A stretch of 64,000 nt of DNA from NCBI RefSeq assembly GCF_030486595.1, contig NZ_JAUJZH010000016.1:62001-126000 (forward strand), in the 5' to 3' direction. A model generated the notes under the pieces. It saw nothing but the letters and a program-made list of their open reading frames with translations, did no database searches and was not told the origin of the DNA. Position numbers and translations under genes: made by a program. The DNA is from Variovorax ginsengisoli. Its GTDB lineage: Bacteria > Pseudomonadota > Gammaproteobacteria > Burkholderiales > Burkholderiaceae_C. Of this stretch, positions 8,573 through 25,660 are shown one piece after another. Numbering within the stretch: the first letter of the stretch is position 1; every line of letters starts with the position of its first letter.

Positions 8573-8753
8573 CCCGCCGCCTCGCGCTGACGGACCCTCC
8601 GGTCGGCTCGACCGCTCGAAGGACGCGGAAAGTGAATTTTGGGGCCGGAGTGTGGCGACTTGAGGCGAGCAAATGGGTGACATAAGTCCGTCCGAACGTG
8701 TCGATCCGATCGCCGGGTGATTGCGGAGTCGAGGAGCCACGCAACAATGCGTG

Positions 8754-9410: not shown

Positions 9411-10553
9411 ATGACGGAGGACCAGATGCATCGATTTCTATCAAACAATCGCGACGAGCTGATTTCACGTTGCAAAGCCAAGGTCGCTCAGCGGCCCAAG
9501 AGGGCCGCGACCGCGGCGCAACTCGCCAACGGCATTCCAATGTTCCTGGCCCAGTTGATTCAAACGCTGGAAGCACAGGACAACGGTGAGGTTGACGAGA
9601 GCTTCCGGATTTCCGGTGCCGCGGGCGGGGACGCCGCCGCTTTGTCAGAAATGGGGCTAAGCGCGGCTGCGCATGGGAAGGAGCTCCTGGGGCTTGGCTA
9701 TTCGGTGGACCAGGTCGTGCACGACTACGGCGACCTTTGCCAAGCCATCACGGACCTCGCCGTCGAGCGCGATGCGCCGTTCTCGGTGGATGAGTTCCGA
9801 ACGCTGAACCGCTGCCTGGACAACGCCATCGCTGATGCCGTCACCGAGTTCGGCTTCTGGCGTGACGCCAGCGTCGCTCTCCAACAGTCTGCCGAGGAGA
9901 ATGAGCGGCTCGGCATGCTTGTGCATGAACTGCGAAATCACCTGCACACCGCATCGCTGGCGTTTGCAGCGCTAGAGTCGGGACGCCTGCCCATTGGAGG
10001 TTCGACCGGGGCGGTGTTGAAAAGGAGCCTGACATCGTTAGCGGCCCTGCTCAACCTGTCGCTGTCTCAGGTCAGGGGCACGGCCGAAGCCCCACAGGCG
10101 ACGGCCTTCTCGGTCGCATCGTTGGTCGCGGAGGCCAGGAACGTCGCCTTGCTCGACGCGAGCGCCAGGGGTTGCACGCTCTCGGTCCACGATGTCGATG
10201 CGGCGCTGGGCATTTCCGGCAATCGGGACCGCCTCCTGGCGGCATTGGTCAACTTGCTGCAGAACGCCCTGAAGTTCACCCACGCTAACTCAGAGGTCAC
10301 ATTGAGCGCCCATGCCGAGGGCGACTATGTCCTGGTCAACGTCGAGGACCAGTGCGGAGGACTCCCGCCAGGCAGTGCCTCGCGCATCTTCCAGCCCTTT
10401 GTTCAAGTCGGCGAGAACAAGAGCGGGTTGGGACTCGGCCTTTCCATCGCCCGCCGAAGCGCGGAGGCCGATGGAGGCGTCTTGACGGTTCGGGACCTGC
10501 CTGGGCAAGGGTGCGTTTTCACCATCAAGCTTCCGCGCAGGGTGCTTCACTAG
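9411..10553 (+). CDS. Orphan sensor histidine kinase
   Basis: A 380-aa cytoplasmic kinase without membrane segments. Residues 5-155 resemble RsbRD-type N-terminal helical sensor domains. The dimerisation/phospho-acceptor helix carries His172 in MLVHELRNHLHTA. The ATPase domain shows the N box NLLQNALKFTH (about 281-291), the G1 box DQCGGLPPG (about 313) and the G2 box KSGLGLGLSIA (about 337). All catalytic motifs are present, so it should be active. No intact response regulator lies beside it; the nearest receiver, at 6806, has lost its output domain. The ATG at 9411 overlaps a GGAGG-like context, and an internal ATG at 9426 is an alternative. Confidence 0.85.
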   Translation: MTEDQMHRFLSNNRDELISRCKAKVAQRPKRAATAAQLANGIPMFLAQLIQTLEAQDNGEVDESFRISGAAGGDAAALSEMGLSAAAHGKELLGLGYSVDQVVHDYGDLCQAITDLAVERDAPFSVDEFRTLNRCLDNAIADAVTEFGFWRDASVALQQSAEENERLGMLVHELRNHLHTASLAFAALESGRLPIGGSTGAVLKRSLTSLAALLNLSLSQVRGTAEAPQATAFSVASLVAEARNVALLDASARGCTLSVHDVDAALGISGNRDRLLAALVNLLQNALKFTHANSEVTLSAHAEGDYVLVNVEDQCGGLPPGSASRIFQPFVQVGENKSGLGLGLSIARRSAEADGGVLTVRDLPGQGCVFTIKLPRRVLH

Positions 10554-10679
10554 CGAGTAGCACCTGGTCTTTAGGCCAACCATCCCAGCACCCCCGCGGC
10601 AAGGACGGCTCACGCGCCGCCGGACCAAGAAGTTACCGGCAGCCGTTCGATTGGAAGCGGTACTCGAAGGTCCGGTAGT

Positions 10680-10697
10680 GGGCCGCATCCTGCCACA
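10680..10697 (+). repeat. 18-bp direct repeat, copy 2
   Basis: Exact second copy of the string at 6566-6583, just downstream of the histidine kinase gene. The surrounding sequence (10554-10760) otherwise holds no recognisable gene. Confidence 0.6.
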
Positions 10698-10760
10698 CGC
10701 GGCACAGCGGCACTCGACCTTGAGCGGTTAGTGAACCACCCCAAAACAGTCACTTGGTCA

Positions 10761-11785
10761 TCAGGCGCGCAGGTCCAGCCCTTTCCATGCCACAAACACC
10801 TGCACCTGCTTCTGCAGCCAATCCACAGGAACCGAATTCGTGCCCCAATGGTGAAGCCGCCCGGCTGCTTCACCAAGGTTCCATAGGTGCCGAAGCTGCA
10901 GGAACAGCGGCAACGCCGCCAAGTCACTCTCGCTCACCTCGCCACCGCCCACACGGTACCCGTGCAGGTAGTGCATCCAACGCTCGCGCAGCACATCGTC
11001 GGGTTCCTTAAGGCTTTTGCGAAACAGGTACGACCAGGGAAGCACGCTCAGGTCGTAGGCCAAGAAGCCCGGGCCGGCATCGTCGAAGTCGAAGAACACG
11101 GTCTTCCTGGTACCGCGGCGTCTGTGTACACATGGTTGTTGAAGCCGTGCGTGTCGCCGTGGCAGACCACGCGCGTCAGCCCACCCTCGGCCGCGGCCAG
11201 CTCTTCAAACAGACGGTGCACCAAGAGGCGATACGTTTCCAGCAACTCCGCGCCTATCTCCGGGTACGCCGCTAGGTAGCCCAAGGTCCGGCCGGCCAAG
11301 TGGTGGCCGTCCAGCGTGTAGCGGCTTGGTGGGCCTGCGTAGTCGCGTGCCGACTCGTGGATGTGGGCCAGCGTACGGCCAGTTAGTTCGAGTTCCTCCA
11401 ACGTATCCGGAACCACGCCTTCGGCGTGCCGGAACAGCACCAGGGCACGCGGCCCTTCGGGAAACTGCAGTTGGATGTGCGCGCGCCCGTTCGCCGTCGG
11501 TACCGGCGCGGCCACGCCAACACCTTTGGCTTCCAGGTGCGCCAGCAGCGAGATTTCAAATTGGACGTTGAAGCCGCCCCGCGGCCGGATGGAGTACAGG
11601 CGCGCCACGTAGCGAATTCCGTCGGCCGAACGGAGTGCGTAGTTGTCGTTCAGGCCGCGGCGAATGAGGTGGCACTGTTGTACTGGAATGCCATGGTGCC
11701 GCGTGACCCAGTGTGCGATGGAGGAAGTTGCCGCAGTGGTATGAGTGGGTACGAGAGCAGGGTCGTGTGGGCGGGAATCGGGCAT
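10761..11785 (-). pseudogene. APH/choline kinase-family phosphotransferase, frameshifted
   Basis: The 5' part (11785 to about 11110) encodes the N-lobe and the catalytic loop VVCHGDTHGFNN, with the HGDxxxxN pattern of aminoglycoside phosphotransferase-like kinases. At about 11105-11125 the frame is lost. The other frame continues with FFDFDDAGPGFLAYDLS, the metal-binding DFD block, and the C-terminal helices to 10761. One missing base explains the break. It is either a recent pseudogene or an assembly error. Members of this family phosphorylate small molecules; the substrate here is unknown, and the homoserine kinase/YihE-like subgroup is a guess. Confidence 0.75.
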
Positions 11786-11839
11786 CGCTCATTCTCCATT
11801 CCGCGCCGTGCCTCCGAAGGTCGGCGATGTGTATTTCGT

Positions 11840-12361
11840 TCAGCCATAGCGGACGACGTTGTAGCCTTCCTCCACCGTCGGCGCGACGAAACGACTCGTG
11901 ATTTGGTCGAACTCCTCATCCGTCGTCTCAAAGGGGTGTTCTCCCGAGAGGTTGCGAGCACGCAGGCGCGCTTTGCAGACTTCGTCGGGAATGTCCAAGT
12001 AGTGCAGGCAATGGGCTGCCCCAGCTCTCTCGAAAACGCCGCGGGCCCAAGCTCGCGTGGTGATGGTGTTCGAGGGGAAATCGAGCACTACCGACGTGCC
12101 GGCTGCGAGCAACGTCTCGATGTGGGCTGCCATTGCCTCGCGCAACCTACCGGCACAGCGGGCGTAGTCCGCGATGGTTTGAATCTCGTTCGGATAAAGA
12201 CGTGCGAGCCAAGCGTCTTCGCTGATGAGAACCGTCTTCGGGTCCGTCGCGAGGCGCTTGGTGAGCGTTGACTTCCCGGCCCCGATTTTTCCGCAGACCA
12301 TGTGAAGCACCGCCGGCGCGGAAAGACCTGCGGTGGTCTCAATTGTCCGGAGTGTTTTCAT
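11840..12361 (-). CDS. Small P-loop kinase (AAA_33 / zeta-toxin-like)
   Basis: A 173-aa predicted ATP-dependent kinase. Walker A is GKIGAGKST near residues 24-32. A lid/second acidic motif is suggested by VVLDFPSNT, and the C-terminal region contains basic residues (CKARLRARN) typical of small nucleotide-type kinases. Related proteins phosphorylate small molecules or tRNA/UDP-sugars, and the substrate cannot be read from sequence. Its neighbour is a broken phosphotransferase gene on the same strand. A terminator-like hairpin lies only about 40 bp upstream of its start. Confidence 0.75.
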   Translation of the reverse strand: MKTLRTIETTAGLSAPAVLHMVCGKIGAGKSTLTKRLATDPKTVLISEDAWLARLYPNEIQTIADYARCAGRLREAMAAHIETLLAAGTSVVLDFPSNTITTRAWARGVFERAGAAHCLHYLDIPDEVCKARLRARNLSGEHPFETTDEEFDQITSRFVAPTVEEGYNVVRYG

Positions 12362-12402
12362 TCCAATCTCCTGTGACGCTGAATGCCTCGGGAGACAGAA
12401 AA

Positions 12403-12424
12403 AACCCGCCTCACGGGGCGGGTT
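12403..12424 (-). terminator. Terminator-like hairpin upstream of the kinase gene
   Basis: AACCCGCC-TCACGG-GGCGGGTT, a perfect 8-bp stem. On the minus strand it is followed by a run of T (six A on the plus strand at 12399-12404). It sits between any upstream minus-strand transcription and the kinase start at 12361, so it is either an insulator for an incoming transcript or a leader attenuator. Confidence 0.6.
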
Positions 12425-12497
12425 GCATATGGCTGTTCTGGCCGCGCGCTAACCCGGATTCGTATTAACTTGAGCGCACGTCGTGAGGGAATGCGGC

Positions 12498-12827
12498 ATG
12501 ACACCCGTCGAGAATCAGTTTCTTATCGAGAAGGACGCGTTGCTAGGTGCGTGTGAGCGCGTTGCGACGGCGTTGGGCGATGGGGGGCCATCAAGGCATC
12601 TCTGGAATGTCGTATCGACATTGCGCCAGGCGACTGATTGGGAAGCACAGGCACAGGCCGCTTCTAGCATCCGAACCCTCTTTCACCGCGATGGAATCAA
12701 CGACCGACCGCCACCTGCCGGCGCAGCGACCTGGGACAGGGACATCGCACTGCTCTGGGACCTCTCGACTATCTACGTCGAAAGCAAGTACCGCGACGTT
12801 TCGAACGCTCGTACTGAGAGCCACTGA
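12498..12827 (+). CDS. Hypothetical protein
   Basis: A 109-aa soluble, mostly helical protein of unrecognised family. I chose ATG 12498 because GAGGGA precedes it at a proper distance; a GTG at 12483 is in frame. It is followed 34 bp later by the nucleotidyltransferase-like gene and may be co-transcribed. It has no signal peptide or membrane segment. Confidence 0.55.
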   Translation: MTPVENQFLIEKDALLGACERVATALGDGGPSRHLWNVVSTLRQATDWEAQAQAASSIRTLFHRDGINDRPPPAGAATWDRDIALLWDLSTIYVESKYRDVSNARTESH

Positions 12828-12861
12828 CCGCCGCAGTCGCTGACAAGAGACGTACACGCAT

Positions 12862-13356
12862 ATGGGCAACCGCATCGGCGACAACCTGGTCCACTTCGGC
12901 GGCAACGAGCAGCTGATTCGTGCCCTGGACGCCGCTGGCGCGAGGTTCATGGTCGTCGGTGGCCTTGCCATGGCCTGGCACTGCCCCGAGCGGGAAGCGG
13001 ACGACGCGGACCTATTGCTCGACCCCACGCCTGAGAACTCGGAGAGAGTTGCCAACGCCCTCAGCGGCCTCGGGCTGACAGACGTCCCGAAGACCGCCTT
13101 CGCTCGACTTGGGCTCCAGGTCCCGCTGAAGAACGCCAGCTTCTACGCCGAGTTGCTGACCCCCAAGGATGGCGGCATGACCTACGCCGAGGCCGAGGGG
13201 GATGCGGCCCATGCCCGGCTTTTCCAGATTCCGGTACGCCTTGCCTCCGTAGTGGCCCTCAGGCGCATGAAGTCGCACGCAGCCGAGTCCGCAGTCGGCG
13301 CAGAGCGTCAGAAGCACCTCGATGACTTGAAGCTGCTTGAGGGCGCGCCATCGTAG
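12862..13356 (+). CDS. Nucleotidyltransferase-fold protein (AbiEii/MNT-like)
   Basis: A 164-aa protein with the small nucleotidyltransferase signature: FMVVGGLAMAWHCPEREADD followed by ADLLLDP. This matches the G-G-x-A...H...R...D-hydrophobic pattern of the Pol beta superfamily. The first catalytic position is the Asp in DADLLLD. Such proteins occur as toxins, abortive-infection factors and tRNA- or protein-modifying nucleotidyltransferases. No HEPN or antitoxin partner is obvious next to it. The function is inferred at fold level only. Confidence 0.6.
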   Translation: MGNRIGDNLVHFGGNEQLIRALDAAGARFMVVGGLAMAWHCPEREADDADLLLDPTPENSERVANALSGLGLTDVPKTAFARLGLQVPLKNASFYAELLTPKDGGMTYAEAEGDAAHARLFQIPVRLASVVALRRMKSHAAESAVGAERQKHLDDLKLLEGAPS

Positions 13357-13432
13357 TGGGAATCCTCGGTACCGGCCGGAGGCCGATGAGCTACGGCAGA
13401 ATGCGGCTACAACCAGACCTTCATTGCGCGCC

Positions 13433-13948
13433 ATGAATCCACCTTGGGTTGAGTTTCCCGACATTCCGATGGGGAGCGCCGGCTGGCGCATGGGCCACGG
13501 TGAGCCGTATATGCAACGCTGGACCGCCTGGTATCAAGCACGTTCAGCGGACGAACGCCGCGTCTATCAGACTTCATGGCGCGAGCCGCGAGATTGGGCA
13601 GGGTTCTTTGCCTATGTCGATGATGGAACCCTCCCGCCGTCTGTTGCAGAGCGTCGCGCTCGGCTAGAGGAGCCGCAGCGACCGCCGTCGCCTGACGAGC
13701 GAAGCATCCTCGATTACTACCGAGCGCAGTGGCTGATTCGTCGTTACATGCGACAGATTGACCAATTTCAGGTTTCCGCCCGCCATCCCTCGCCTTACCT
13801 CGGTGAGCGAGACGGTGAGCACCTGATGGGCTACTACGAGGAACCTGACGGTTCTTGGTGGCGCGTGAGCAACCCGAATCGGGGTGGCTTGGAGATGCTT
13901 CGCATCGACGCGGAGCTTCTGAGCGATTGGAAAGAACGACTGCTTTAG
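13433..13948 (+). CDS. Hypothetical protein
   Basis: A 171-aa acidic/aromatic-rich soluble protein starting MNPPWVEFPDIPMGSAGWRM, with many Trp and Tyr residues (RWTAWYQARS, DGSWWRVSNP). I do not recognise the family. The pattern GWRMGxGE is reminiscent of small proteins found scattered in accessory islands. The ATG at 13433 is preferred because upstream in-frame codons overlap the preceding gene's tail. Confidence 0.55.
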   Translation: MNPPWVEFPDIPMGSAGWRMGHGEPYMQRWTAWYQARSADERRVYQTSWREPRDWAGFFAYVDDGTLPPSVAERRARLEEPQRPPSPDERSILDYYRAQWLIRRYMRQIDQFQVSARHPSPYLGERDGEHLMGYYEEPDGSWWRVSNPNRGGLEMLRIDAELLSDWKERLL

Positions 13949-14601
13949 AGAAATCCAGAGTTCGGCTTAGGGCCCGAACTCCCATTTCGATGGCGGACAG
14001 AGCAGACGTTCAACTTTTCAAGGGCAAGGTCGCTAGAGGGCGAGCAGGGGGCTATGACTGCAATGCCCCTTGGGACCGGCCGTCGACACCGAGGGATCCC
14101 CGGCACTTGGATGACCCGAATCGGGCTGACAACGTCGGGTCGACGAGTGACCCGGGAAGGGCGGCAAGCGCTGCTGCCAGGCCGTCGTCCAGCAATTGAG
14201 CGCGGGATCGGTCCGGGGCTCAGACCAACCTCGAGCTCGCATGCCGATGGGATCGACGCTCGCCGCGTGTCGCTGGAGCCTAGAGTGAGGCTGCTGGCAC
14301 AGGGCCGCGATTTCGCGTCGCCATGGGAGGGCGACTGGGGCTCGATGCGCCGAGTGGGCGATAAGGCGCGCTTATCGATCCCAACCCCGATTACTTTAGT
14401 CAGAGAAAGGGGATGTGCTCGAAGCCGGTTCGAACCCTCGGCGGGTTGTGCTCATAAATGCCAGCAGGCCGCACCCGCTTGCCGGCGTTGCCGCCCAGCC
14501 TTGCCAGGCCTTTGAAGGTGTGCCTACCATGCGCGAATGGCGAATTCGAAGGGTCCTAGGTATTCGCGCCGGGATCCTTGCCGCCAAATGCCGAGGATGC
14601 G
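13949..14601. other. About 650 bp without a supportable gene
   Basis: Contains two inverted repeats: AGTTCGG...CCGAACT at 13959-13980 (no T-run, so a weak terminator at best) and a palindrome at 14359-14377. Open frames are not convincing. It is probably decayed mobile DNA. Confidence 0.45.
14359..14377. repeat. Interrupted palindrome CGATAAG-GCGCG-CTTATCG
   Basis: A perfect 7-bp inverted repeat around a 5-bp GC spacer. The geometry suits a recombinase or dimeric regulator site. No second copy was found in the window. Confidence 0.45.
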
Positions 14602-14932
14602 ATGAAGTCGATGGTGATTGGCGTCATGCCGCAAGACAAGATTCGGGCCAGGGCGATGGCCATCGCCAAGGGTGAGTACAAGCCCAAGCGTGGCGAGCCT
14701 AAGATCTGGTTCAGATGCGCTCGATGGCCAAAGTACTGAGCGACTCGAACCGAACCTTGCTACAGGTGTCCAGGACACGACGCCTCGCTCCATATCGGAA
14801 CTGGCAACTTCATCGTGCCTTCATTCAGACCATACTTCGGGGGCGTTGAAGGCGATGGCTCGCTGCGGCTTGGTGGAACTGCACAAAGAGAAGCGCCAAG
14901 TGCAGCCCGTTCCAGGGCCGTCGATTTTGTGA
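14602..14932 (+). pseudogene. HVO_A0114-type (TumA-like) antitoxin/HTH regulator, double frameshift
   Basis: The first 37 residues (MPQDKIRARAMAIAKGEYKP, then KRGEPKIWF) match, from memory, the conserved N-terminus of HVO_A0114-family DNA-binding antitoxins. The frame then breaks near 14711. The second frame gives MRSMAKVLSDSNRTLLQV, and after another break near 14768 a third gives SISELA...LKAMARCGLVELHKEKRQVQ, the expected winged-helix end. Translation as written stops after 45 aa. No intact partner toxin (TumE-like) is seen directly upstream. It is a decayed toxin-antitoxin remnant. Confidence 0.7.
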
Positions 14933-15295
14933 TCCTGGTCAGCGGCTGAAGTGGTGGCAGCAACGCACCTCGACCACGACGCTTTCGAAACGCGGAAATC
15001 GGTGGGGCCTTCGCTCTGTTTGGTGGGTAGGCGATGCAGCCTGATTCTCAAGCCGATCGCGGGAGGCGTGTCGTCGGCGCACCCAAGTTGAGCCCGGCGC
15101 GACCCGAAAAGTTGTGGCGCTGTCGCGTCATTGCGTCGCATTTGAGTTTATGTTTTTCGACAGAAATTCGAAGTCCGGTATGGTTCTGCATGAGCGCCGT
15201 ATCTCTTCGAGGCTGACGATGTCGGTGGCGCCCGTACTTGCCCGATACGGGAGGCTCGACCTGCCGTCGGGCGTTGGAACTGAGAGGCGCACGAA
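14933..15295. other. About 360 bp intergenic
   Basis: No gene or clear terminator is recognised. The AT-richer stretch near 15130-15170 may hold the promoter for the gene at 15296, but I cannot define boxes with confidence. Confidence 0.35.
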
Positions 15296-15616
15296 ATGGA
15301 CAGCATCCCTGAAGATTTTCCGTTGCCAGTGATCGGTGCAGTGCCTGGAGTGCAGCCAAAGATCTTGGTGCGTCTCATCGATGGCCGATACATCAACGAT
15401 GCCGTCACCGACGAGGCGCAGGAACGCTACCAGCTATGCGCCGATCTGGTCGTGCAACTGGCCTCCTACGCGCAGAGGAAGCGTGCCGAACATCCGGATT
15501 GGTCCCGCGCCGAGCTCCAGGCAAAGCTTGCCAGTGGCCTCCAGCGGAAGAACTGGGGACTGTCGAATGCGGAGATTCAGTGGATTTCAGGACGCGCGTG
15601 CGCGTTACCCGAATGA
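15296..15616 (+). CDS. Conserved-looking hypothetical protein
   Basis: A 106-aa intact protein with a GAGAGG ribosome site 8 bp before the ATG. The pattern PGVQPKILVRLIDGRYIND...RYQLCADLVVQLASY...WGLSNAEIQWI looks like a family of small proteins of unknown function found in accessory regions of Burkholderiales. That resemblance is from memory and not verified. It is helical, with no signal peptide. Its neighbours are two broken antitoxin genes, so it may be another cargo gene of the same island. Confidence 0.65.
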   Translation: MDSIPEDFPLPVIGAVPGVQPKILVRLIDGRYINDAVTDEAQERYQLCADLVVQLASYAQRKRAEHPDWSRAELQAKLASGLQRKNWGLSNAEIQWISGRACALPE

Positions 15617-15783
15617 AACAGGGTCGAGGCGAGCCTTTGATGAGCTCCATAGCTTTCGAGAGGCGAGAAGTAGGGCCTTCACGATCGGTCTCAGGACATG
15701 GCCTCTGCCCAAGCATTGCCTCGACGGCGAAGGTTTGAGCGCTCCGCTGCCTGGTGTCGCGTATCCGGCGAGGGCGAGGCAAC

Positions 15784-16220
15784 ATGTCCGGCATGATGAC
15801 CGATCCGGATGCGGTCCCGCCCACGTCCGTGCACATGAAACGGGCTCGCCTGAAGACCCAGGCCCTGCGCGCAATCCGCCATGGCACGGACTGGCTGACG
15901 GCTGCCGAAATCGCCAATCTCGCTAGCCTGGGGCCGGTGAACCCGACCGGGACCGTCAGCCGCTGGAAGCAGCAAGGGCAATGCTCGCCAAAAACTACTA
16001 CCCGAAGTACGCCCTGGGCGCGGAACTTCGTCCTCTTCCTGTGATCAAGGAGATCTTGGCGGTGCTGGCCGGCCATCACCCCGCATTGCTCGCAGGATGG
16101 TTTGATAGCACCTCGCGCTTTCTTGGAGGAATGCGTCCGCGCGAACTGGTCGCCACTGACCCGCTCCGGGTCGTCGCCGCTGCACGCAACATGGTCGACG
16201 TGCAGGAGCATCACGGGTGA
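15784..16220 (+). pseudogene. Xre/MbcA/ParS (DUF2384)-type antitoxin-like gene, frameshifted
   Basis: The N-terminal frame (15784 to about 15985) carries a helix-turn-helix-like segment (TQALRAIRHGTDWLTAAEIA, then VSRWKQQG). A frameshift near 15985 follows. The second frame (AKNYYPKYALGAE...FLGGMRPRELVATDPLRVVAAA) is the C-terminal domain that in this family binds the RES-type toxin. A small deletion between WKQQG and NYYPKYAL accounts for the break. No RES-domain toxin follows downstream. It is probably inactive unless this is an assembly error. Confidence 0.65.
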
Positions 16221-16987
16221 CTCGAGTTCGTCGGCGACTTGGCCGACGGGCGGTCTGGAATTGGTGAAGATCAGCACGCTGGACTTGGCTTCCTGGTAGA
16301 GCGTCGTTATCGGTTTCCATCAACCAGCCAGCAGGATGCTTCCAGCCGTGCGACGCAACGCGGCCACGCGTACTGTTGAACGGCTTTGGTTGATCGTGAC
16401 CGAATTCGCGCGAGCCCGTCCCGCGAGCGTTTCTCCTTCTGAGGACTGGCCTGACTACAGTTCGGCCGACTTCGTCTCTGTGACCCATTCAGTGCGCTTC
16501 CTCGCCACCCGCCGCAAGGCGGTCTTCACGCCTGCTGGCAAGTAATCCGCCTGATGCAATCGAATCGCAGCGAGGCCAGCGGAGGTCGCAGAGTCGTGAG
16601 TCGGCATCGGGCCGCGGGCATAGTCGACCACACGCGTCCGCCAGACAACGGTTTAGTAAAAGTGCCCGGGTATGGACTCCTCGACTATCAGCGCATAGTC
16701 CATTGTTTTCGTCACTGTCGCTTCCATGAAGTAGGAACCGCTCCATTGGGCATGGGGGTCCACTCGATGCGACGGGCGGATTTCACGGCCGCCCGCAAAT
16801 CTTCGGGCCCAGGCATTCAATGATTGGTGCGACAGTCTTTTGCGCGCGGTCTCGGTGCAACCAAGGCGACATCGACGAACGCCTCCCCGAGCAACGCCGA
16901 GGCGCACCGGATCGCGATGGATGTCGCACAAGTCTTCGACCTGTCCGCGACAGTTCGGCACGGAGACCAGCATAAGATGAGCGCAAC
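16221..16987. other. About 770 bp between the antitoxin remnant and tniQ
   Basis: No supportable gene is seen. A minus-strand stretch near 16740-16830 (DLRAAVKSARRIEWTPMPNG) reads like the tail of a protein that I cannot place. GC stays high up to the tniQ stop codon and then drops sharply. I searched here for the left transposon end (TGT terminus with CCGGCAAT-type sites) and found none. Confidence 0.45.
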
Positions 16988-18367
16988 TCAGACCTGTTCA
17001 GGCCGCTGCTTCAGGATTTGGGCGATACATTCTTGGATTCTTCTATAGGCGATCGGATATTCCTGGTACGACAAGCGGAGACCCTCACCACGTAATTTGT
17101 CCGCAGCAGAGCGCCGTGTATAGGACTCTCGTTCTTTGACAAACTGGTGCGCAATAAGCAATATCTTTTCATTCAACTTGGTGTCGTGGGCATCCCGCTT
17201 AGTTTTGTTCAGTGCGGCAAGTCTGTCATCGAGAACCTCCATGAATGCCGGATCGTGCTTTGAAATAAACTTTGACAGGACAGACCGATCAACTTTGAGA
17301 TAATTCGAAAGTGCGGCGAGCGAAATAATGTGCGGATGCCCGCCCGCTCTCAGTTCGCTGAACGCAGCGATTGCCCCTGAAGCGTCCAAGCGCCTTGGAG
17401 CGAATGGTTTTCGGATAGTCGACAGAGTGGCCACTCTTGCCTGTATTGCGGTGCGCATCAACTGCACACTCAGCGGTGGAAGGGAGTGAACGCGACCGCA
17501 TAGCAGATCGAGAAGGGAGATATGCAATGCATAAGCAATCTCGCACAAATGATTCCATTGAGGCATAGCAAGCCCGTGGATCCAATAATGTGTCGCCGAT
17601 TTGTTCTTTCCAAGATCGCTAGCAAATTTGGAAAAATTGCCGTCGTAAAATACATTGCGAGCCTCGTTTAGCACGCGGCGAATGCTCTCGCTAGCATCGA
17701 GATTGTGTGTGTCGGGATGATTCAAGACTTGGCTGAACGATTCGGCGACCCAAACATGAAAATCCTTGGGAACCTCTGCGTTCTCGTGGCTCTCGGCCCC
17801 CAGCCATTTGCGACATTTCGGACAAAATCCTGAAATCTCTAGCACAGTCAAGGCCGGAATCTTTGAGTACCCGCAAGATGGGCACGTCGAAGTCAGGTTG
17901 AAGCGGTGTTTTGGACACACTACAACATCGTTGATGCTCCAAAGCAATCTTTCAAACGGGCCTGCTTCTGTGTGCCGATCCTCGTTGAAACAGATGCCAC
18001 ACCATTTGCGGTATCTTGACGCCACAATGGGCGCCACGCCGTTAATCGCCAGTAGCGACTGTAATGTGAAATCTTCGAGCCCAGCGAGCAGGGTGACGCG
18101 CTCTAATTTCTCAATAATTCCGCGGGATAAAGAGGCTCCGCGATCGATGAGATGCGTAGCGCCACCCTCGAAGGCGAGCGCGAACCCAGTCCCTGGAATC
18201 GGAAGAACATAATACTTCAATACGTCCGCCAAGGCCAAGTGATTGAATTCGGCCAAACGGCGGATCCACGAGCGCAGCGATTCCTGCTCGCCGCGCGATG
18301 ACTCTGCTGCGGGTGGAGACCGAAACACCGCGCATGGGTTTGTCGCCTTGTCTGAGGTAGATTTCAT
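16988..18367 (-). CDS. tniQ: TniQ/TnsD-family target-site selection protein
   Basis: A 459-aa protein with the TniQ layout. An N-terminal helical segment (SLRSWIRRLAEFNHLALADV) is followed by two zinc-binding clusters: Cys123/Cys126 with Cys151/His154 (WCGICF, VCPKH), then Cys162/Cys165 with Cys182/Cys185 (CPSCG, FCPKC). The C-terminal half contains helix-turn-helix-like repeats (ALSNYLKVDRSVLSKFISKH and SAADKLRGEGLRLSYQEYP). Known members bind target DNA (TnsD) or a Cas effector (CAST TniQ) and recruit TnsC. The length is closer to TnsD-type than to the shortest TniQ. No second tniQ, tnsE or cas gene is nearby. The gene starts 90 bp after tnsC. Confidence 0.82.
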   Translation of the reverse strand: MKSTSDKATNPCAVFRSPPAAESSRGEQESLRSWIRRLAEFNHLALADVLKYYVLPIPGTGFALAFEGGATHLIDRGASLSRGIIEKLERVTLLAGLEDFTLQSLLAINGVAPIVASRYRKWCGICFNEDRHTEAGPFERLLWSINDVVVCPKHRFNLTSTCPSCGYSKIPALTVLEISGFCPKCRKWLGAESHENAEVPKDFHVWVAESFSQVLNHPDTHNLDASESIRRVLNEARNVFYDGNFSKFASDLGKNKSATHYWIHGLAMPQWNHLCEIAYALHISLLDLLCGRVHSLPPLSVQLMRTAIQARVATLSTIRKPFAPRRLDASGAIAAFSELRAGGHPHIISLAALSNYLKVDRSVLSKFISKHDPAFMEVLDDRLAALNKTKRDAHDTKLNEKILLIAHQFVKERESYTRRSAADKLRGEGLRLSYQEYPIAYRRIQECIAQILKQRPEQV

Positions 18368-18456: not shown

Positions 18457-19509
18457 TTAAATGGTCTTGGTAGACAAGACAGCTAGTTCCCCAGCCTCCA
18501 AATGGGCTTTCACGCGTTGCACACCTTCTTGCTGCTCCTCTTGCATTACCATCAGCTGAGATTTTGGATAGTATGCTGGACGCAGATGGGCGATGCTTAA
18601 CGGCTTGGCGTCCCTCAATGCTGCTGAAATCCCATAGTTCATAAAGCCTGCAGCAATTCCAACGCAACCGAGCGAGTTAAGAAAGACTTCGATCGCGTTG
18701 TCTAAAAGATCATCATTGACTTCGATGGGACAGTTTTCGATGAGTCCACAAAAGGCAAGAGTGAATTCGTGTATTCCTTTCTGGTCTGCGTGGTATGGCT
18801 CATAGAGGATGACTAGGGAGCGGCGTGCAAGTTGGGCAGAGACAAGTGTCATGTCAAAGAAATCAAAAGCCCCTCCCAAGATAAAGGCGGAAGGCCATTT
18901 GTTCGACATCGTGCGGAGTTTTGCTGCCTGTGCCTTCAGTCGTAGAGTCTTGTCCGCTTGCGTCTTTGCACGCCCAATGTCGAAACAATGAACTGCTTCG
19001 TCGATGCAAATTACGTCCGTCTTTCTTTCAATGGTCTCTCTATGCCAACGCCTCACCAATGCATCGTCACCGGGTTTTCTTGCGAAGCCCTCGATGGCAA
19101 GAGTGGAAAGAGATTCACCACCGGCGTCCCTTGAAACAAACGGAAGCGTGCGTTCTGCCAAAGGTACATTCATTTGCTGAAGTGCTTCCAACGCCATCGG
19201 TCCGAAATTGAATTGACCTCTGATGGGCTCCTCGGCTTCTAGGAAGATTCCGCGGTGACGAAAGGGGGCGGTATCGGCCGCGCAACGCTTTTTTGCGAGG
19301 TTGCGCATGGCAACAGATTTGCCCACGCCGGTCGGTCCCACCAGGCAAATCAGTTTCCGGTGAAATTGCGGATTGGCAGCGTTTTCTAGCTTTTCTTGAA
19401 CGCGGCGACTTTCTGCGTGATCGACCACCACCGTTGTCTGGAAGTGCTCCACAATTTCATCGTGGCTAAAATTTCGAAGCTGGGGAATTCTAATGATGTT
19501 TTGCGTCAT
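18457..19509 (-). CDS. tnsC: TnsC/TniB-family AAA+ transposition ATPase
   Basis: A 350-aa AAA+ regulator that in related elements polymerises on target DNA and links the target selector to the transposase. Walker A is GPTGVGKS at residues 58-65. Walker B is DVICIDEAVHC with Asp170-Glu171. A sensor-like Asn/Arg region follows (FILGGAFDFFDMTLVSAQLA). I use ATG 19509, 3 bp after the tnsAB stop; a TTG at 19515 would overlap it. Either way the two genes are translationally coupled. The N-terminal region is short, more like TniB than the long Tn7 TnsC. Confidence 0.85.
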   Translation of the reverse strand: MTQNIIRIPQLRNFSHDEIVEHFQTTVVVDHAESRRVQEKLENAANPQFHRKLICLVGPTGVGKSVAMRNLAKKRCAADTAPFRHRGIFLEAEEPIRGQFNFGPMALEALQQMNVPLAERTLPFVSRDAGGESLSTLAIEGFARKPGDDALVRRWHRETIERKTDVICIDEAVHCFDIGRAKTQADKTLRLKAQAAKLRTMSNKWPSAFILGGAFDFFDMTLVSAQLARRSLVILYEPYHADQKGIHEFTLAFCGLIENCPIEVNDDLLDNAIEVFLNSLGCVGIAAGFMNYGISAALRDAKPLSIAHLRPAYYPKSQLMVMQEEQQEGVQRVKAHLEAGELAVLSTKTI

Positions 19510-19511
19510 GA

Positions 19512-22193
19512 TCAATTCATCAATTTTCCGAGAGTGGGTGATTTTTTGGCGGCTTCAATAGCGTTTTTCATCATTTGATTGAGATTGGCGAGAGTATTGC
19601 GTGCGTCATCAGGGAGAATTTCAGGCGACGGTAGGGGTGCAGTACCCATGATATTGATAGCGTTTCGATCACGCCAATATTCGATGTTTTTCTTCGCCTT
19701 CTCGGTCATTTCTTCCAGCAATTTGCGGAGCTTGCGATGTGCATCCTTTCCCGCCGTTTCCACAAGACGTTGTTCTACGAGCCATTCTTCATATATCGCA
19801 CGACGAACCAAGGGATGGACGCGAGAGATTTCGCTGTGGTTCTGTGCCTTGCATTCGATCCAATTGCGGTCAAGATGTGCGATCACAATGGATGGGTCAA
19901 ATGCATGAGGTTTGACAGCCACCCTCTTTCCTTTCAAATGTTGCGGCGTCAGGTGAGCGTGGCCATACTGTCTGTAATTGACTGTGAGGCCGCGTGTGGG
20001 GTCGATTGATCGAGGTCGGCCAGGCGCCGTGGGCAGAAGAATTGGCAATACGTCCTCCACGCCGCGTGTGCGATGCAGTCGGAACCCGTGCATCTGTAGC
20101 GATTGGTCATATGCCGCGGTCGGTTTCATCAGGGTTGTCGAATGCTTGCGGTTGTTGAAGATTTCGAAAAATCCCCTCAGTCCCACGTAAAGATCAAGCA
20201 GCGTATGCGCGCTATGTGAGGAGGGATCGGTCTGTTTTGTGGATGTTCGGACTTTTTTTAAGCTCTGAGTGCTTCCCGCAATGCCGTTTAATAGCATCGT
20301 TGTCGTTGTACCGAACATGCGCTCAATGATGGCGCCGAAGCGCGGACTGCTCTTGGGGCGCGTATGACGTATTATTTCTAAGTCGTTCAGCGCCTGTGCA
20401 AACTCTTTCTTCTTGAATTCGCTACCGTGATCATGAATGATCGCGTCCGGCAAACGATTGCATTGCTCTACAATATCCAAGAGCACAAGCATCGAACTGA
20501 TATAGGATGGCGGCCTGAACGAGAGGTGCATCCCGACAACCTTTCGCGTGTGGGCGCAAACGGCCAAAGTGAGCCAAGGGCGACCCAAGATTTCACCGGT
20601 CAGTGAACTCTTGAGCAGAACGTCGAGGAGGGTACTATCAATATGAACCAATTCCAACGCGCGTTCCATGTGAATCGGCGTGTCGCCGTCCAACATCCAA
20701 TGGACTGGTTCACTATGTTTTCCGAGCTTGTGGCCTTCCGCGCTAGTGGTTGTGGCCGGAGTGCGCCGTTTTGCAACCCGCTCGTAAAAAGATGACTTGG
20801 CGATCATCTTGTATCCGAGCGCTTGAATTGCTTCTTCTACTGCGAAGTAGATTTCAAGAGTATTCTTCTTGGGACGTGCCTCGATTCCTTCATCAATCAG
20901 CTCGGTAAGCTTTTTGTCGAGGGTCGCGTCGACGTGGGGTCCACTATAGCCCTTATCGTCGCCAGCGTCGATTAGCGACTCCAGCGCGCTGAGGCCTCTG
21001 GTTTTTCCATCTTCGACTTGATTGCGCCAGCGCCGGATGGTGGAGTCCGAGTACTTTTCATCAGCGTTGAGTTTTAGGTCTTGATCGATCTTTTCGAGGA
21101 TTTCACGACGTCGACGGGCGCGGATTAGGGACTCGGCAGAGGTGTTCCAAAAGATGCTGCGCGGGTGGGTCGTTAGACTTTCCGGCAAGACCAAGCGGCC
21201 AGGTGCTGCGGCTAGTAGAGAGTGCAGCAATTCAACAGGCTGATCCGCTGAATCACGAGCATAGATCGCGGTCTGGCCCGAAAATTCGACTGTAAGCCGA
21301 ACCCCGTCGAAGAGGAAAACATCCCCCTTTGCCAGCTTGCGCTCGGCCCCAGGGGCGATGGGTCGCGGTCTCGTGCCGTCGGGGCGAAGTGCCTGGATCC
21401 AGGCCTTCGCCGTTTCCGCATGGGCAAAGACCGGCAAATCCTCCGGGTCGTCAGAAAGTCTTGCGCCGTCAAGGTCGGTAAATATATAGCCCTGAGCCAG
21501 AGCCCAATTCAACGTGTCGCGCTCGATCCCATCGCTCAATAAATCGGCTAAAGCAGTTCCTCCCGGCCGGGAGACCCTATCTAGAAGCTCGGGGAGGCGG
21601 GATCGATAGACCTCACTGGCTGCGCGTGCTAAGTAGCTAAAAAGGTAGCGCCGATTCAGCGTTGCGGTCTGAGGGATTTCATCGGAAAAGTGTAGGCTAT
21701 AGCCGATCCCCATCGGCCGCAATGCTTCATTGATCGGATGCGAGGAATAGGCGCCATCTGCCAAGAGATCGTAGCGCCCTGGCACCCGTTCTAAGAGGCG
21801 TCCCCGGAAGTCTGCTGGCCTCCATTCTTCGACGACCACGCCGCGATGCTCATGAAATACCAAAAAGTCAGGGCGAAATGTGGTTCGTACTTTGTGGCCG
21901 TTTTTCCCGTCGTAGATGATTTCGATAGGCTCTGCTTGATTGACGTAGCCGACCACCTCCTCGTCGAAGATACGTTGCAGCGTCGCAGGGTGCTCGCGAC
22001 TCCATGTGGCCGATGCGGATGTCCATCCCATTTTGGGGCACGGGATTGTGCTCGGCGTGTTGTGAGTGGTGCCGACTGATTTCTGGGACCATCCATTCCC
22101 AAGCGTTTTTTCGACGTACTCTCTTCCGGCGTCGGAGATTGGATATTTTCGCAGAAGCTTGTCTAAGCGCTCCCTTGAGAACTCCTTAAACAT
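19512..22193 (-). CDS. tnsAB: Fused TnsA-TnsB transposase
   Basis: An 893-aa single polypeptide joining two Tn7 functions. Residues about 50-190 resemble the TnsA restriction-endonuclease fold: FRPDFLVFHEHRG with Asp109, then VVEEWRPAD with Glu123 and Arg125 where TnsA has its Q-V-K catalytic strand. Residues about 360-500 look like TnsB DNA-binding helices. Residues 510-640 are the RNase H-like DDE domain: Asp519 (VHIDST), Asp588 (IIHDHGSEF) and Glu624 (AIIERMFG), with exactly 35 residues between the last two. A Mu-transposase-like C-terminal barrel follows. It should cut both strands at each end, provided the TnsA part is active. The SD GAGGT precedes the ATG. Confidence 0.83.
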   Translation of the reverse strand: MFKEFSRERLDKLLRKYPISDAGREYVEKTLGNGWSQKSVGTTHNTPSTIPCPKMGWTSASATWSREHPATLQRIFDEEVVGYVNQAEPIEIIYDGKNGHKVRTTFRPDFLVFHEHRGVVVEEWRPADFRGRLLERVPGRYDLLADGAYSSHPINEALRPMGIGYSLHFSDEIPQTATLNRRYLFSYLARAASEVYRSRLPELLDRVSRPGGTALADLLSDGIERDTLNWALAQGYIFTDLDGARLSDDPEDLPVFAHAETAKAWIQALRPDGTRPRPIAPGAERKLAKGDVFLFDGVRLTVEFSGQTAIYARDSADQPVELLHSLLAAAPGRLVLPESLTTHPRSIFWNTSAESLIRARRRREILEKIDQDLKLNADEKYSDSTIRRWRNQVEDGKTRGLSALESLIDAGDDKGYSGPHVDATLDKKLTELIDEGIEARPKKNTLEIYFAVEEAIQALGYKMIAKSSFYERVAKRRTPATTTSAEGHKLGKHSEPVHWMLDGDTPIHMERALELVHIDSTLLDVLLKSSLTGEILGRPWLTLAVCAHTRKVVGMHLSFRPPSYISSMLVLLDIVEQCNRLPDAIIHDHGSEFKKKEFAQALNDLEIIRHTRPKSSPRFGAIIERMFGTTTTMLLNGIAGSTQSLKKVRTSTKQTDPSSHSAHTLLDLYVGLRGFFEIFNNRKHSTTLMKPTAAYDQSLQMHGFRLHRTRGVEDVLPILLPTAPGRPRSIDPTRGLTVNYRQYGHAHLTPQHLKGKRVAVKPHAFDPSIVIAHLDRNWIECKAQNHSEISRVHPLVRRAIYEEWLVEQRLVETAGKDAHRKLRKLLEEMTEKAKKNIEYWRDRNAINIMGTAPLPSPEILPDDARNTLANLNQMMKNAIEAAKKSPTLGKLMN

Positions 22194-23206
22194 GCGACCT
22201 CGCGCATTGGAGTTTTACGGGAAACGCTGCTCGATCTGTGCGAACGGATGTTCGTGCAGTGGCGTGGACGTGTTCTGGCGTGCAAGACAGCAGGCTGAAT
22301 CCCATGAACGACCCTTGGGCACATTTCGCGCGAGAGTCGTTCAAGATGAGATTTGCTGGAGTTGATCGTAAAAGTCGCGCCGTCCTTGCGTCAAAAGCTT
22401 GCCATCAATTTCTGAAGGCTTCGTGAGATTCTCTGGGGTCATACGCAAAATCCTAGCGGGCTTAGGCGCGCTGGCTCTTGGTGTAATCTCCAATTGACAG
22501 TTTCACTAAAAAATGCCTGAAACAGATGCGAATGTTTTCCAGCCATCTGCAAATTGGAGTGGTTGGAATTATTGTCATTGCGCCAGTAAATTGCAAGTGG
22601 AGTTTTACGCTGATCATGATGACCATTGTTCTTTCCGAATGAAGTCGATAGGTATGAAGCGTTGTTCTGGGCACGTTCCTGGTTGGCTGGCGGTGCAGGC
22701 GCACTGGGCCAAAAAAAGGGCTTGCTCATGCCTCGAGGGTGTGCGATAGTTTTCTCTATGAGAGCTTGGCTAAGGTTCTTGTTGATGTTGGTGTGCTTGT
22801 GTCCCTGGCCTATCAAGAGGGCAGGGACGCTGAGTCTTGCGCCAACGTTGAAACGGGTCTTCGTGACGCCGTACTTCTATCCCCGGGGCAACTCGATGAG
22901 CTCCTCTATGGTGTTTTGTAGTTCGGGCTTGGGGGCTGTGTTGTTGAGTTGGTACCTACCTGAAGCCCGACTTCGCGGTCGGGTCGATTGCAATGTTGTC
23001 AGGTCAGCTGTGCTTTGGGTAGGGCGTAGCACTGGTCTTGGCGAGTTCACCTCGCCTCAGGTCCACGAGCGTGTAAACGCTTCGGAAGGGAACTTGACGT
23101 ACCGCGCTTTCCCTCTGATACCTAGTACCGTTCCCGGCTAATCTCATTGCGCTCTTTCATCGCTCTATTGGGCCGAAGTGGACACATTCGCGCATTTGAA
23201 GCATGC
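22194..23206. other. About 1 kb between tnsAB and the right-end repeats
   Basis: GC is lower than in the backbone, like the tns genes. Several open frames of 60-170 codons exist but none is convincing. A signal-peptide-like string (VIRKILAGLGALALGVISN) at about 22439-22497 runs straight into a stop. A hairpin CCCGAC...GTCGGG lies near 22967-22984. In Tn7 the corresponding gap is much shorter, so a decayed gene may have sat here. Confidence 0.4.
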
Positions 23207-23222
23207 GCATGTATTGCCGGAA
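23207..23222 (+). repeat. Right-end 16-bp repeat 1 (putative TnsB site)
   Basis: GCATGTATTGCCGGAA, differing from the other two copies at two positions. It is in the same orientation as the others, 30 bp before repeat 2. Confidence 0.65.
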
Positions 23223-23236
23223 TAATCGAAAGTTGA

Positions 23237-23252
23237 GCATTAATTGCCGGAA
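23237..23252 (+). repeat. Right-end 16-bp repeat 2 (putative TnsB site)
   Basis: GCATTAATTGCCGGAA, identical to repeat 3. Spacing to repeat 3 is 65 bp. Confidence 0.7.
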
Positions 23253-23301
23253 AGGGGGGTGCGCTCCGGTCAATTGGGCGGCTCTTGAGGCCGATTTTCA
23301 C

Positions 23302-23317
23302 GCATTAATTGCCGGAA
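23302..23317 (+). repeat. Right-end 16-bp repeat 3 (putative TnsB site)
   Basis: GCATTAATTGCCGGAA, identical to repeat 2. It ends 63 bp before the proposed terminus. A weaker partial copy of the core (ATATGCCGG) follows at about 23330-23338. Confidence 0.7.
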
Positions 23318-23367
23318 TTGGTGATCGAAATATGCCGGCATCCACACAATTCGATAGCGGACTTTTT

Positions 23368-23380
23368 CCTTTTGGGGACA
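23368..23380 (-). repeat. Putative right transposon terminus TGTCCCCAAAAGG
   Basis: Read on the minus strand from 23380 inward the sequence is TGTCCCCAAAAGG. Tn7/Tn5053-family ends begin with TGT. The 5 bp just outside, AAATG at 23381-23385, would be the target duplication. With no left end in view, the exact boundary is inference. Confidence 0.5.
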
Positions 23381-23435
23381 AAATGGCCCCCAAACGCATC
23401 TGCCATGATCGAGGACTCAGTTTCAAGGAAGCACC

Positions 23436-24077
23436 GTGCTGACTGTCCACCATCTCGGCAAATCGCAATCAGAGCGAATCGTGTGGCTCTGTGAGGAGCT
23501 CGGCCTGACGTACGAGCTGAAGCACTATGTGCGGGATCCGGTCACCGCGCTGGCCCCACCAGAACTCGTCGCACTGCACCCGCTCGGCACCGCGCCCGTG
23601 ATCAGCGACGGAGATCTCCTGCTTGCCGAGTCGGGCGCCATCGTCGAGTACATCATCGCAAACTACGGCCATGGCCGGCTTGCGTTCGGCCCGAACCATC
23701 CGGACTACGTCGACTACATCTTCTGGTGGCACTACGCCAACGGGAACTTCCAGCCGAACATGGGGCGCAACATGCTCCTGCGGAGACTGCACCTGCCGCC
23801 TGACAATCCTATCGCAGCCCGCCTGAACGGCCGGCTCGCCGGGGCGTTCGCGCTGATAGAGAAGCGCCTCGGCGACGTACCGTTCCTGGCCGGCGAGAAC
23901 TTCACCGCCGCCGACATCATGACGTTCTTCTCGCTGACGACGATGCGGTACTTCATGCCCTTCGACCTCACGCCTTATCCGAACATCCTGGCCTACCTGC
24001 AGCGCATTGCAGGGCGGGACGCCTACCAGCGCGCCATGCGAAAGGGCGACCCGGGCATGCCACTGTTGCTGACCTGA
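23436..24077 (+). CDS. Glutathione S-transferase family protein
   Basis: A 213-aa protein with an N-terminal thioredoxin-like domain (MLTVHHLGKSQSERIVWLCE, then the glutathione-binding LLLAESGAIVEYI) and an all-helical C-terminal domain (FLAGENFTAADIMTFFSL, the conserved N-capping/hydrophobic staple region). The start is GTG 23436, preceded by AAGGAAG. It conjugates or otherwise handles glutathione adducts; the substrate is unknown. It is the first backbone gene after the transposon right end, only 55 bp from the proposed terminus. Its native promoter has therefore been displaced or replaced. Confidence 0.88.
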   Translation: MLTVHHLGKSQSERIVWLCEELGLTYELKHYVRDPVTALAPPELVALHPLGTAPVISDGDLLLAESGAIVEYIIANYGHGRLAFGPNHPDYVDYIFWWHYANGNFQPNMGRNMLLRRLHLPPDNPIAARLNGRLAGAFALIEKRLGDVPFLAGENFTAADIMTFFSLTTMRYFMPFDLTPYPNILAYLQRIAGRDAYQRAMRKGDPGMPLLLT

Positions 24078-24104
24078 AGGCTCGCCCGGGTCGGGGTGCT
24101 TCCA

Positions 24105-25052
24105 TCAACCGAAGAGGCGGGGCGGCTGGTCGCACGCATTCATCGGCCGCGGCATGTCGACCATGGCCACGCGCACCAAGGTGGCTGCAAATTCCCGCGA
24201 GGGGTTGTCCGCGATGCGGAACACTGTCAGTGGCGCGGGTGATTCGGCGTGCGCAGAAGCAACTGCGGACAGGCCGCACGACCGATCGACCGGCGCCGGC
24301 TTCGTCCCCACGCGGATATGCCGGTCCGCCCTCAGGAGCACGCTGCAGAAACGCTGGACCTGACGCTCGAATGCCTCCGGGAGCAAGCCCAGGCCGCGCA
24401 GATCATGATCGCTTCCATCGACCAGCGCTTCCAGCCGGCGCCGTTCGGCGCTGTCCTGTGGTGCGCTGCCGACGACTGTACCCATGCCGATGCCCAGGCG
24501 CTTCAGGATCGCCACGCGCTTGCTGAACAGCGCAAGCTCGCATTCGAGCATGTCGCGCCGATCGGCCTTCGTCACGATCATTCCGAGTGCCTCGAGGGCC
24601 AGCTGATCGACGAGGCAGTCGACGATCTCCTTTTGCAGCGCCGTTCTGTCGGTCTGGCAGGCGCGCAGATGGGGGGTGCTTTGCGCCATCTCCATTGCCA
24701 GCACTGCGTAGGCATGATCCGGAGGACGCGATGCCTGGAAGATCCGGGTCAGCTCGCGGGCGTTCGCCAACGTGGCGGCCACTTGATCGGTTGTGTCGAA
24801 GAAGGCGCGCAGACAGGGATCGCTCGCCCAGCTTTGCGCGTTCAGCACGCGCGGCAAGGGAAGCTGCGAAACCACCCTGTTCAGGAAACCTGCAGACGAT
24901 GCCAGCGCCGCTCGCAGATGCTCCTCGTGGCCGTGCGCCCGCTGCAGGCAAGGATTGATGCGAAGCACGCGGGCAAGCAGTCGATCCAGTTCGTCGTCGC
25001 AGCGCCCGTTCCTGGCGTTGCTCTCGGGGAGGACTCGGCTGAGGATCTGCAT
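24105..25052 (-). CDS. Hypothetical protein
   Basis: A 315-aa, mostly helical, Cys- and Arg-containing soluble protein with no signal peptide, membrane segment or recognised motif. Composition and long uninterrupted frame support coding. The tail is convergent with the GST gene (27 bp apart). The start at 25052 lacks a clear ribosome site. Helical stretches such as LEALGMIVTKADRRDMLECE suggest a bundle, but no function can be assigned. Confidence 0.6.
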   Translation of the reverse strand: MQILSRVLPESNARNGRCDDELDRLLARVLRINPCLQRAHGHEEHLRAALASSAGFLNRVVSQLPLPRVLNAQSWASDPCLRAFFDTTDQVAATLANARELTRIFQASRPPDHAYAVLAMEMAQSTPHLRACQTDRTALQKEIVDCLVDQLALEALGMIVTKADRRDMLECELALFSKRVAILKRLGIGMGTVVGSAPQDSAERRRLEALVDGSDHDLRGLGLLPEAFERQVQRFCSVLLRADRHIRVGTKPAPVDRSCGLSAVASAHAESPAPLTVFRIADNPSREFAATLVRVAMVDMPRPMNACDQPPRLFG

Positions 25053-25307
25053 GTAGGGCTTTCAAACGGAGAAGATCTCTGCACCCTTTGGGCTGAATCG
25101 ATCATCCGTCCGGCTCCCTGCGGAGAGCTTGATGCACATCAACGAGCGTGCAACATCGATGAGGCTGTCGTTTGAACAACCAAGGGCGCAGGCCTCGCGA
25201 CGGCGATGTACGAGGCTTGGAATCTTTGATATCCGTCAATCGGGCCCGGCCTGCCGCCCGCCACCATGCATGCTTGCTCGTAGGTCCTATGAGCGAGGAG
25301 CGCAAAG
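25053..25307. other. Divergent intergenic region
   Basis: About 255 bp between two divergent hypothetical genes, expected to hold both promoters. No distinct operator or terminator was recognised. Confidence 0.35.
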
Positions 25308-25655
25308 ATGACGAAACCGCCAGTTGCCGATTCAGTGCCTGCGGCGCCCGAGGTCGCACTGGAGCCGACGAAGCCTCTCACCAGGAGCCAGACAAAAATC
25401 GTGAAGGACAGCTTCAAGATGCCGAGGCTCGACTTCGATTTGATTGACGGCCTGAAGGAACGCGCCGCGGGGTTCGGTCGTCCCGCCAAGCAGGGAGAGC
25501 TCCTGAGAGCCGGGCTCCATTCGCTTCAGAAGCTCAGCGATGGCGACCTGCGCCGGGCGCTGGATGCTCTGGCGCCATTGAAAGCTCGACGTTCGGACAA
25601 GGCCGGAGCGACGCCCCGTCGGGTGGCGAGCCCGGGCGTGCGGACTCCCGCATAG
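25308..25655 (+). CDS. Hypothetical protein with a possible DNA-binding helix pair
   Basis: A 115-aa protein with ribosome site GAGGAG. The Ala/Pro-rich ends are disordered. The centre (KDSFKMPRLDFDLIDGLKER, then KQGELLRAGLHSLQKL) has the strand-helix-helix feel of ribbon-helix-helix proteins but is not a clear member. Its tail is convergent with the RIO kinase gene, 5 bp apart. Confidence 0.6.
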   Translation: MTKPPVADSVPAAPEVALEPTKPLTRSQTKIVKDSFKMPRLDFDLIDGLKERAAGFGRPAKQGELLRAGLHSLQKLSDGDLRRALDALAPLKARRSDKAGATPRRVASPGVRTPA

Positions 25656-25660
25656 CGTTA

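Follow-up and report, generated by a model that had tools for sequence, protein, structure and literature searches.

As described in the part of the source available to us, CyCAST inserts about 30 to 33 nt downstream of a tRNA gene by means of TnsAB, TnsC, and TnsD (PMC10293859). The I-B2 and I-D branch includes tRNA-targeting TnsD proteins together with other, unstudied selectors, according to the accessible sections of a review (PMC11406308). We analyzed a 64-kb stretch of Variovorax ginsengisoli contig C16 (here called the window), in which 16-bp repeats probably serve as binding sites for the transposase at an end of a Tn7-like element. Our favored explanation, which we consider very likely, is that the repeat array forms the right (R) end of a Tn7-like transposon whose mate is a left (L) end at position 6566 of another contig, C13, next to a tRNA-Lys gene; TniQ would direct homing to the tRNA, and the island between the two ends would span at least 91.9 kb.

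The 16-mer GCATTAATTGCCGGAA occurs exactly at 23237-23252 and 23302-23317 on the plus strand, and a third copy with two changes lies on the same strand at 23207-23222. No other match with three or fewer mismatches was found in the 64 kb; in 100 shuffles the count averaged 0.28, was at most 2, and never reached 3. The three same-orientation repeats (0, 0, and 2 mismatches) reported in the original prediction are therefore real. They also appear not to be backbone DNA: among the matches listed to window positions 23200-25200 in 60 other related genomes, none starts before query base 198, and none therefore reaches the array.

Beside the array lie three genes, all on the minus strand. The first, tnsAB (19512..22193), encodes an 893-aa fusion of a TnsA nuclease and a TnsB DDE transposase, residues 7 to 790 of which match PDB 9bw1 chain M (phmmer, E = 1.2e-71); its rve domain scores under the Pfam cutoff, and its DDE residues (D519, D588, and E624) are kept, as aligned across relatives. 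The second, tnsC (18457..19515), encodes a 352-aa AAA ATPase with AAA_22 above and TniB below the cutoff and a match to PDB TnsC (E = 9.6e-13). The third, tniQ/tnsD (16988..18367), encodes a 459-aa target selector (PF06527, E = 2.7e-12) whose best PDB match is TnsD (8v32/9bw1, E = 2.9e-23; next match, 1.8e-13) and which also matches the PADLOC model TniQ_IB (E = 2e-23). We found only one TniQ in the genome, and one genomic match to the window TnsAB at a cutoff of 1e-20. All three proteins match best to chains of 9bw1, which we take to be the I-B2 element PmcCAST, or of sister entries. A DDE transposase, a TnsC-type ATPase, and a TniQ/TnsD selector, with TnsA and TnsB in one protein, are thus encoded next to the array, which supports the predicted Tn7-like right end with its putative TnsB-type sites.

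The position of the TnsA-type lysine is occupied by Arg125 in the window TnsAB. Among 26 aligned TnsA parts, it is Lys in 17, Arg in 8 (the window's included), and Val in 1; both this count and our TnsAB tree leave out the partial rows L015, L019, and L057. We considered the arginine as a sign of decay, but it is no clear sign, since 8 of the 26 rows have it. Arginine in the stretch of TnsA residues 122 to 125, found in seven other rows of the 26 too, may mean that cleavage of the 5' strand is altered in several branches.

With the source genome counted, relatives of TnsAB at E ≤1e-20 are present in 10 genomes of the order sample and 16 of the family sample (399 genomes each); at 1e-80, the class sample yielded the source genome only (1 of 369). 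Among the matches listed, identity was 24 to 30%, with the exception of Hylemonella gracilis Niagara R (G720), which we take to be a betaproteobacterium, at 40%. The two TnsABs pair with 100/100 support and a branch length of 1.52 in the 26-row tree. A scan of named genomes, from which very near records are perhaps left out, gave no match with the window TnsAB (P0001) and H. gracilis only with an alignment of the two proteins. The same single-protein and two-protein queries gave no match among the viral contigs scanned, nor did a plasmid search for the two end sequences and for the tRNA flank of G720. The element is a member of a rarely seen branch related to CRISPR-guided transposons. H. gracilis also has a second TnsAB (L060, G720:C1:3136522-3138930), which falls on a different branch of the tree.

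The H. gracilis element (G720:C1:68526-97909; 29.4 kb by its termini) has the gene order tnsAB, tnsC, tniQ in common with the window, at identities of 38 to 40% for TnsAB, 32% for TnsC, and 29% for TniQ. In the window, we predict four TnsB-type sites on the minus strand: R1 (23325..23341, first base 23341; ATGCCGGCATATTTCGA), R2 (23302..23318; ATTCCGGCAATTAATGC), R3 (23237..23253; TTTCCGGCAATTAATGC), and R4 (23207..23223; ATTCCGGCAATACATGC), spaced 23 (R1 to R2), 65, and 30 bp apart. R1, whose counterpart is G720:C1:68531, is the weakest, scoring 17.9 with a matrix that includes R1 itself; this fourth site, like the tRNA link and the left end on contig C13, goes beyond the original prediction. 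We ran a matrix built solely from the four window sites over 80 kb of G720 (C1:35001-115000). Its four best matches, at 68618, 68648, and 68554 (plus strand) and 97904 (minus strand), with scores of 23.0, 20.8, 19.7, and 19.6, correspond to three sites of the R end and the terminal site of the L end; 10 mononucleotide shuffles, scanned on the plus strand, peaked at 12.6 to 16.4. The other three of the seven G720 sites, 97835, 68531, and 97862, ranked 5th, 9th, and 12th, with scores (16.2, 14.3, and 13.8) within the shuffle range. The G720 R sites (68531, 68554, 68618, and 68648) are spaced 23, 64, and 30 bp apart, versus 23, 65, and 30 bp in the window, and alignment of the two R ends has just one gap, of one base, across the first 139 window bases, a stretch that contains all four sites short of the final base of R4.

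The H. gracilis termini, TGTTGA (R) and TGTGGA (L), each lie 5 bases before the first site; we therefore place the window terminus at 23346 (minus strand), where it reads TGTGGATGCCGGCATATTTCG inward. It is possibly 2 bp longer, starting at 23348, because two further bases common to both ends might belong to the terminus. The window R end opens with TGTkGA, the pattern it has in common with the second element, 5 bases ahead of the first site, and TGTGGA also opens the two left ends (C13 and H. gracilis). The original prediction had instead placed the terminus at a TGTCCCC, with an AAATG duplication. That sequence does occur (TGTCCCCAAAAGG, 23380-23368, minus strand), but a terminus at 23380 is extremely unlikely: the end common to C13 and G720 begins at 23346-23348, so that comparison of two elements puts the real end 34 bp further inside; no such TGTCCCC was seen in the C13 and G720 flanks inspected; and the duplication falls away, as AAATG-TGT is absent from the plus strand of C16:1-126000.

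Between tnsAB and the site array is a subterminal stretch (22194..23206) with no recognized gene; two ORFs tested there matched no Pfam family. Since the repeats lie 1 kb upstream of tnsAB, they might also bind a regulator, and could then be operator or iteron sites unlinked to transposition. We believe this to be very unlikely, because the H. gracilis element carries the motif at each of its ends, with 21.9 kb between the R-side copies and tnsAB, and because a nearly empty site exists for that element. In a congener (G780), 116 bp separate the two sequences that flank the H. gracilis element, at tRNA-Arg(CCG), and the element is absent; on sequence comparison, this locus is a nearly empty site. 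In G1190, 5.1 kb of other DNA separates the same two flanks. The H. gracilis left end, which we first spotted by eye beside tRNA-Arg, lies 29 nt from that gene and consists of one terminal site and two inner sites (97835 and 97862) in opposite orientation. A search for the ends of the G720 element by way of duplications did not find them, and a G720 repeat, TGAGTTGAGGCAACACC, was considered and rejected. Between its R end and tnsAB, the H. gracilis element contains genes for MzaA-, MzaB-, and MzaC-type defense proteins, a cytosine methylase, and Vsr (L062, that is, G720:C1:75001-95000, at 1076-14538).

The partner end had been expected outside the window, and an L end with the motif was indeed located on contig C13. 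The suggested search for the 16-mer outside the window yielded C13:6545 and C20:52098 (≤2 mismatches); the latter was rejected as another end, with no second site nearby. The C13 left end (C13:6566) and the 3' end of tRNA-Lys(TTT) (L076:6598-6673) are 31 nt apart. From 6568 on the minus strand, 22 of 24 bases match the window terminus joined to the repeat, a terminus that was itself prompted by C13; the maximum in C16:1-146000 was 17. Depending on orientation, gapped local alignment of the C13 region with the window end scored 49 or 36; the maximum in 100 shuffles was 40. As in the H. gracilis L end, the C13 terminal site is accompanied by inner sites (6493 and 6520) in opposite orientation. 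Predicted site arrays with TGT termini are thus found at the window R end, at the C13 L end assigned to it, and at both G720 ends. At both loci, moreover, the L end lies about 30 nt from the 3' end of a tRNA gene (31 nt at C13 and 29 nt at G720); these distances fit homing of the CyCAST type at 30 to 33 nt, as given in the available part of PMC10293859.

Pattern searches bear on whether there are further ends. Exact WTCCGGCAWTWNNTGC occurs five times in the 7.8-Mb genome, three times in the window R end and twice on C13; because the pattern was written from these sites, this shows only that no third end was seen. With ≤2 mismatches, there were 211 matches versus 157 for the reversed control, which is uninformative. 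Likewise, exact TGTGTGGATKCCGGCA, written from these two loci, occurs only in the source genome among 299 family genomes; its one-mismatch matches, in 70 of the 299, are scattered and apparently due to chance, and were set aside. On C16, neither the motif, with mismatches allowed, nor site matrices revealed a left end. Two other candidates, CAATT-TGT at window -22650 (for an end at 23346) and ATTCG-TGT at 18770 inside tnsC (for an end at 23348), were discarded, with no sites near either.

We took the DNA left of tRNA-Lys from 7 of the 40 other genomes in the genus sample. In six of these (G421, G424, G350, G428, G402, and G406), tRNA-Lys is followed within 0.7 to 13.9 kb by C16-homologous DNA in the required orientation. 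The C16 homology begins at 87661, 89513, 89548, or 90050-90051; it starts at window 25661 in G421 and later in the others. The 19.8 kb left of tRNA-Lys in G400 contained no match to C16 longer than 150 bp; G400 as a backbone flank ending at 23397 was dropped, as it has essentially GST and YedK in common with C16, plus weak matches. Directly outside the R end, the window (23347..25660) carries a GST gene (23436-24077) and a 315-aa ORF, and these 2.3 kb (23347-25661) found no match in the 13 stretches compared. Given the gene order in six of seven relatives, C13 and C16 would be neighbors in the likely ancestral order, and their ends would therefore face each other across C13:6566-1, a gap, and C16:1-85346 (window 23346).

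A single island of at least 91.9 kb therefore probably lies between the two ends, across a C13-C16 join that we infer. Alternatively, the two ends could stem from independent insertions: one copy, in the window, would have been truncated on the left immediately beyond tniQ, and a different copy would have left its remains on C13. G+C does fall near the tniQ stop codon (from about 0.60 to 0.50, within some 100 bp of it), which fits truncation there as well, no duplication joins the window R end and the C13 L end, and the starts of C13 and C16 do not overlap. We nevertheless consider two insertions unlikely, since motif searches give one R end and one L end genome-wide and since, in six of seven relatives, tRNA-Lys neighbors the DNA right of the R end in the orientation that one island requires.

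On the reading of a single island, the DNA on the tniQ side (1..16987), with an integrase, a LysR regulator, a histidine kinase, an APH-family ORF, and much weakly coding DNA, lies inside it, and the island would continue left past the window start. It contains an IS110-type transposase gene, a DDE_3 transposase gene, and two integrases; given these other mobile genes, it may be an accretion rather than one transposition unit. Its size is not new, because a survey of 6,549 Tn7-like elements includes one of 140 kb, its longest, according to the part of that survey available to us (PMC8649781). Several features of this DNA deserve mention in their own right. A 782-aa AAA_13 protein (L006:13716-16064, on C16 within the proposed island), adjoined by a DUF4238 protein, matches the PADLOC candidate PDC-S06 (E = 7.4e-289); L006:938-10049, near the left end of C16, encodes a DNA-repair-like cluster (DnaE-type polymerase, SRAP peptidase, and LigD); and about 10 kb of the window (6300-16980) have few convincing genes (the histidine kinase at 9411-10553 and the APH-family ORF at 11048-11785) and are apparently decaying. 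The contig that bears the tRNA-Lys gene also has partial copies of it, 45 to 56 bp long and some 11 to 47 kb away (C13:6598 and G421, G406, G419, G415, and G1188); they resemble those left by integrase-type islands, and tRNA-Lys looks like a shared hotspot.

No 5-bp duplication was found at the proposed ends here (ACCTG outside L on C13 and CAATT outside R in the window) or at the H. gracilis element (outer 5-mers AGTCG and CGGCT). One is expected because copies of a distant relative, in Nostoc, have it: ACATT, ACAAG, and GCTCC in three of three testable copies, while the fourth runs off the record. The 5-bp flanks, both here and in G720, sit in DNA that has no counterpart in the relatives compared and may therefore not be original. 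It may be that the flanks have changed or that the ends were recombined.

In our model, in which the element may still be mobile, TnsAB would bind the four R sites, the first two 23 bp apart, and TnsC would link TnsAB to the TnsD-type TniQ. TniQ would steer the element to a point about 30 nt downstream of a tRNA gene, so placed that the left end, on the tniQ side, is beside the tRNA; the gene targeted would be tRNA-Lys here and tRNA-Arg in H. gracilis.

Of the known systems close to the window element, the H. gracilis element, for which no published name is known to us, has the same gene order, R and L site arrays, and left end by a tRNA gene; it differs in lying at tRNA-Arg and in the 21.9 kb with Mza-type defense genes between its R end and tnsAB. 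The 4.75-kb plasmid elements of Nostoc sp. ATCC 53789 likewise have a fused TnsAB, a TnsC-like gene, and an R end that begins with TGTG and lies upstream of tnsAB, with repeated sites, some of them inverted by eye at the R end; they differ in identity (26.6%), in site sequence, in having no tniQ annotated in the 4.75 kb, and in their 5-bp duplications in three of three testable copies. Mixed-orientation L-end sites are kept in two elements (C13 and H. gracilis), and the inverted copies seen by eye in the Nostoc R end suggest that mixed orientation may be a wider trait. In Tn7, TnsA and TnsB are separate proteins, unlike the TnsAB fusion of the window. Tn7 otherwise has the same TnsA, B, C, D plan and closely spaced R-end sites, as far as the available portion of the review describes them (PMC11406308), and its target is glmS, by the part of PMC2918618 available to us, whereas the proposed L end of the window element lies by tRNA-Lys.

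PmcCAST/Tn7744 (I-B2) and CyCAST/Tn7745 (I-D) resemble the window element in their fused TnsAB and TnsC, with a TnsD that targets tRNA genes, according to the accessible parts of the two sources (PMC10293859 and PMC11406308). The window element differs from them in that a single TniQ-family gene was found in the genome, that no CRISPR or Cas was found in what was searched, and that its host belongs to the H. gracilis family and is not a cyanobacterium. Specifically, no direct repeats of ≥22 nt within 120 bp (a CRISPR-like array) were found in the stretches searched, which exclude the C13-C16 gap and C16:60001-62000, and no Cas protein was found among the proteins scanned, a subset of ORFs. A title-level literature search, which is weak evidence, found no title describing such mixed-orientation ends or tRNA-homing TnsA-TnsB fusions in betaproteobacteria.

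The kind of element is thus already known, whereas its branch, end motif, and tRNA neighbors are new as far as searched. Tentatively, the two elements could represent a separate subfamily: CRISPR-free, tRNA-homing TnsAB-fusion transposons of betaproteobacteria, one of which would mobilize an island of at least 92 kb, with a mixed-orientation L end by which left would be distinguished from right. In this L end, the terminal site faces two inner sites that are inverted, an arrangement preserved at about 60% divergence in TnsAB. The site matrix, together with gene order in relatives, can pair ends that lie on separate contigs. As a sister to the I-B2/I-D CRISPR transposons, with no CRISPR system found, defined ends, two tRNA neighbors (Lys and Arg), and one selector each, these elements open two questions to experiment: what lets the TnsD arm switch from one tRNA gene to another, and what sets the left end apart from the right.
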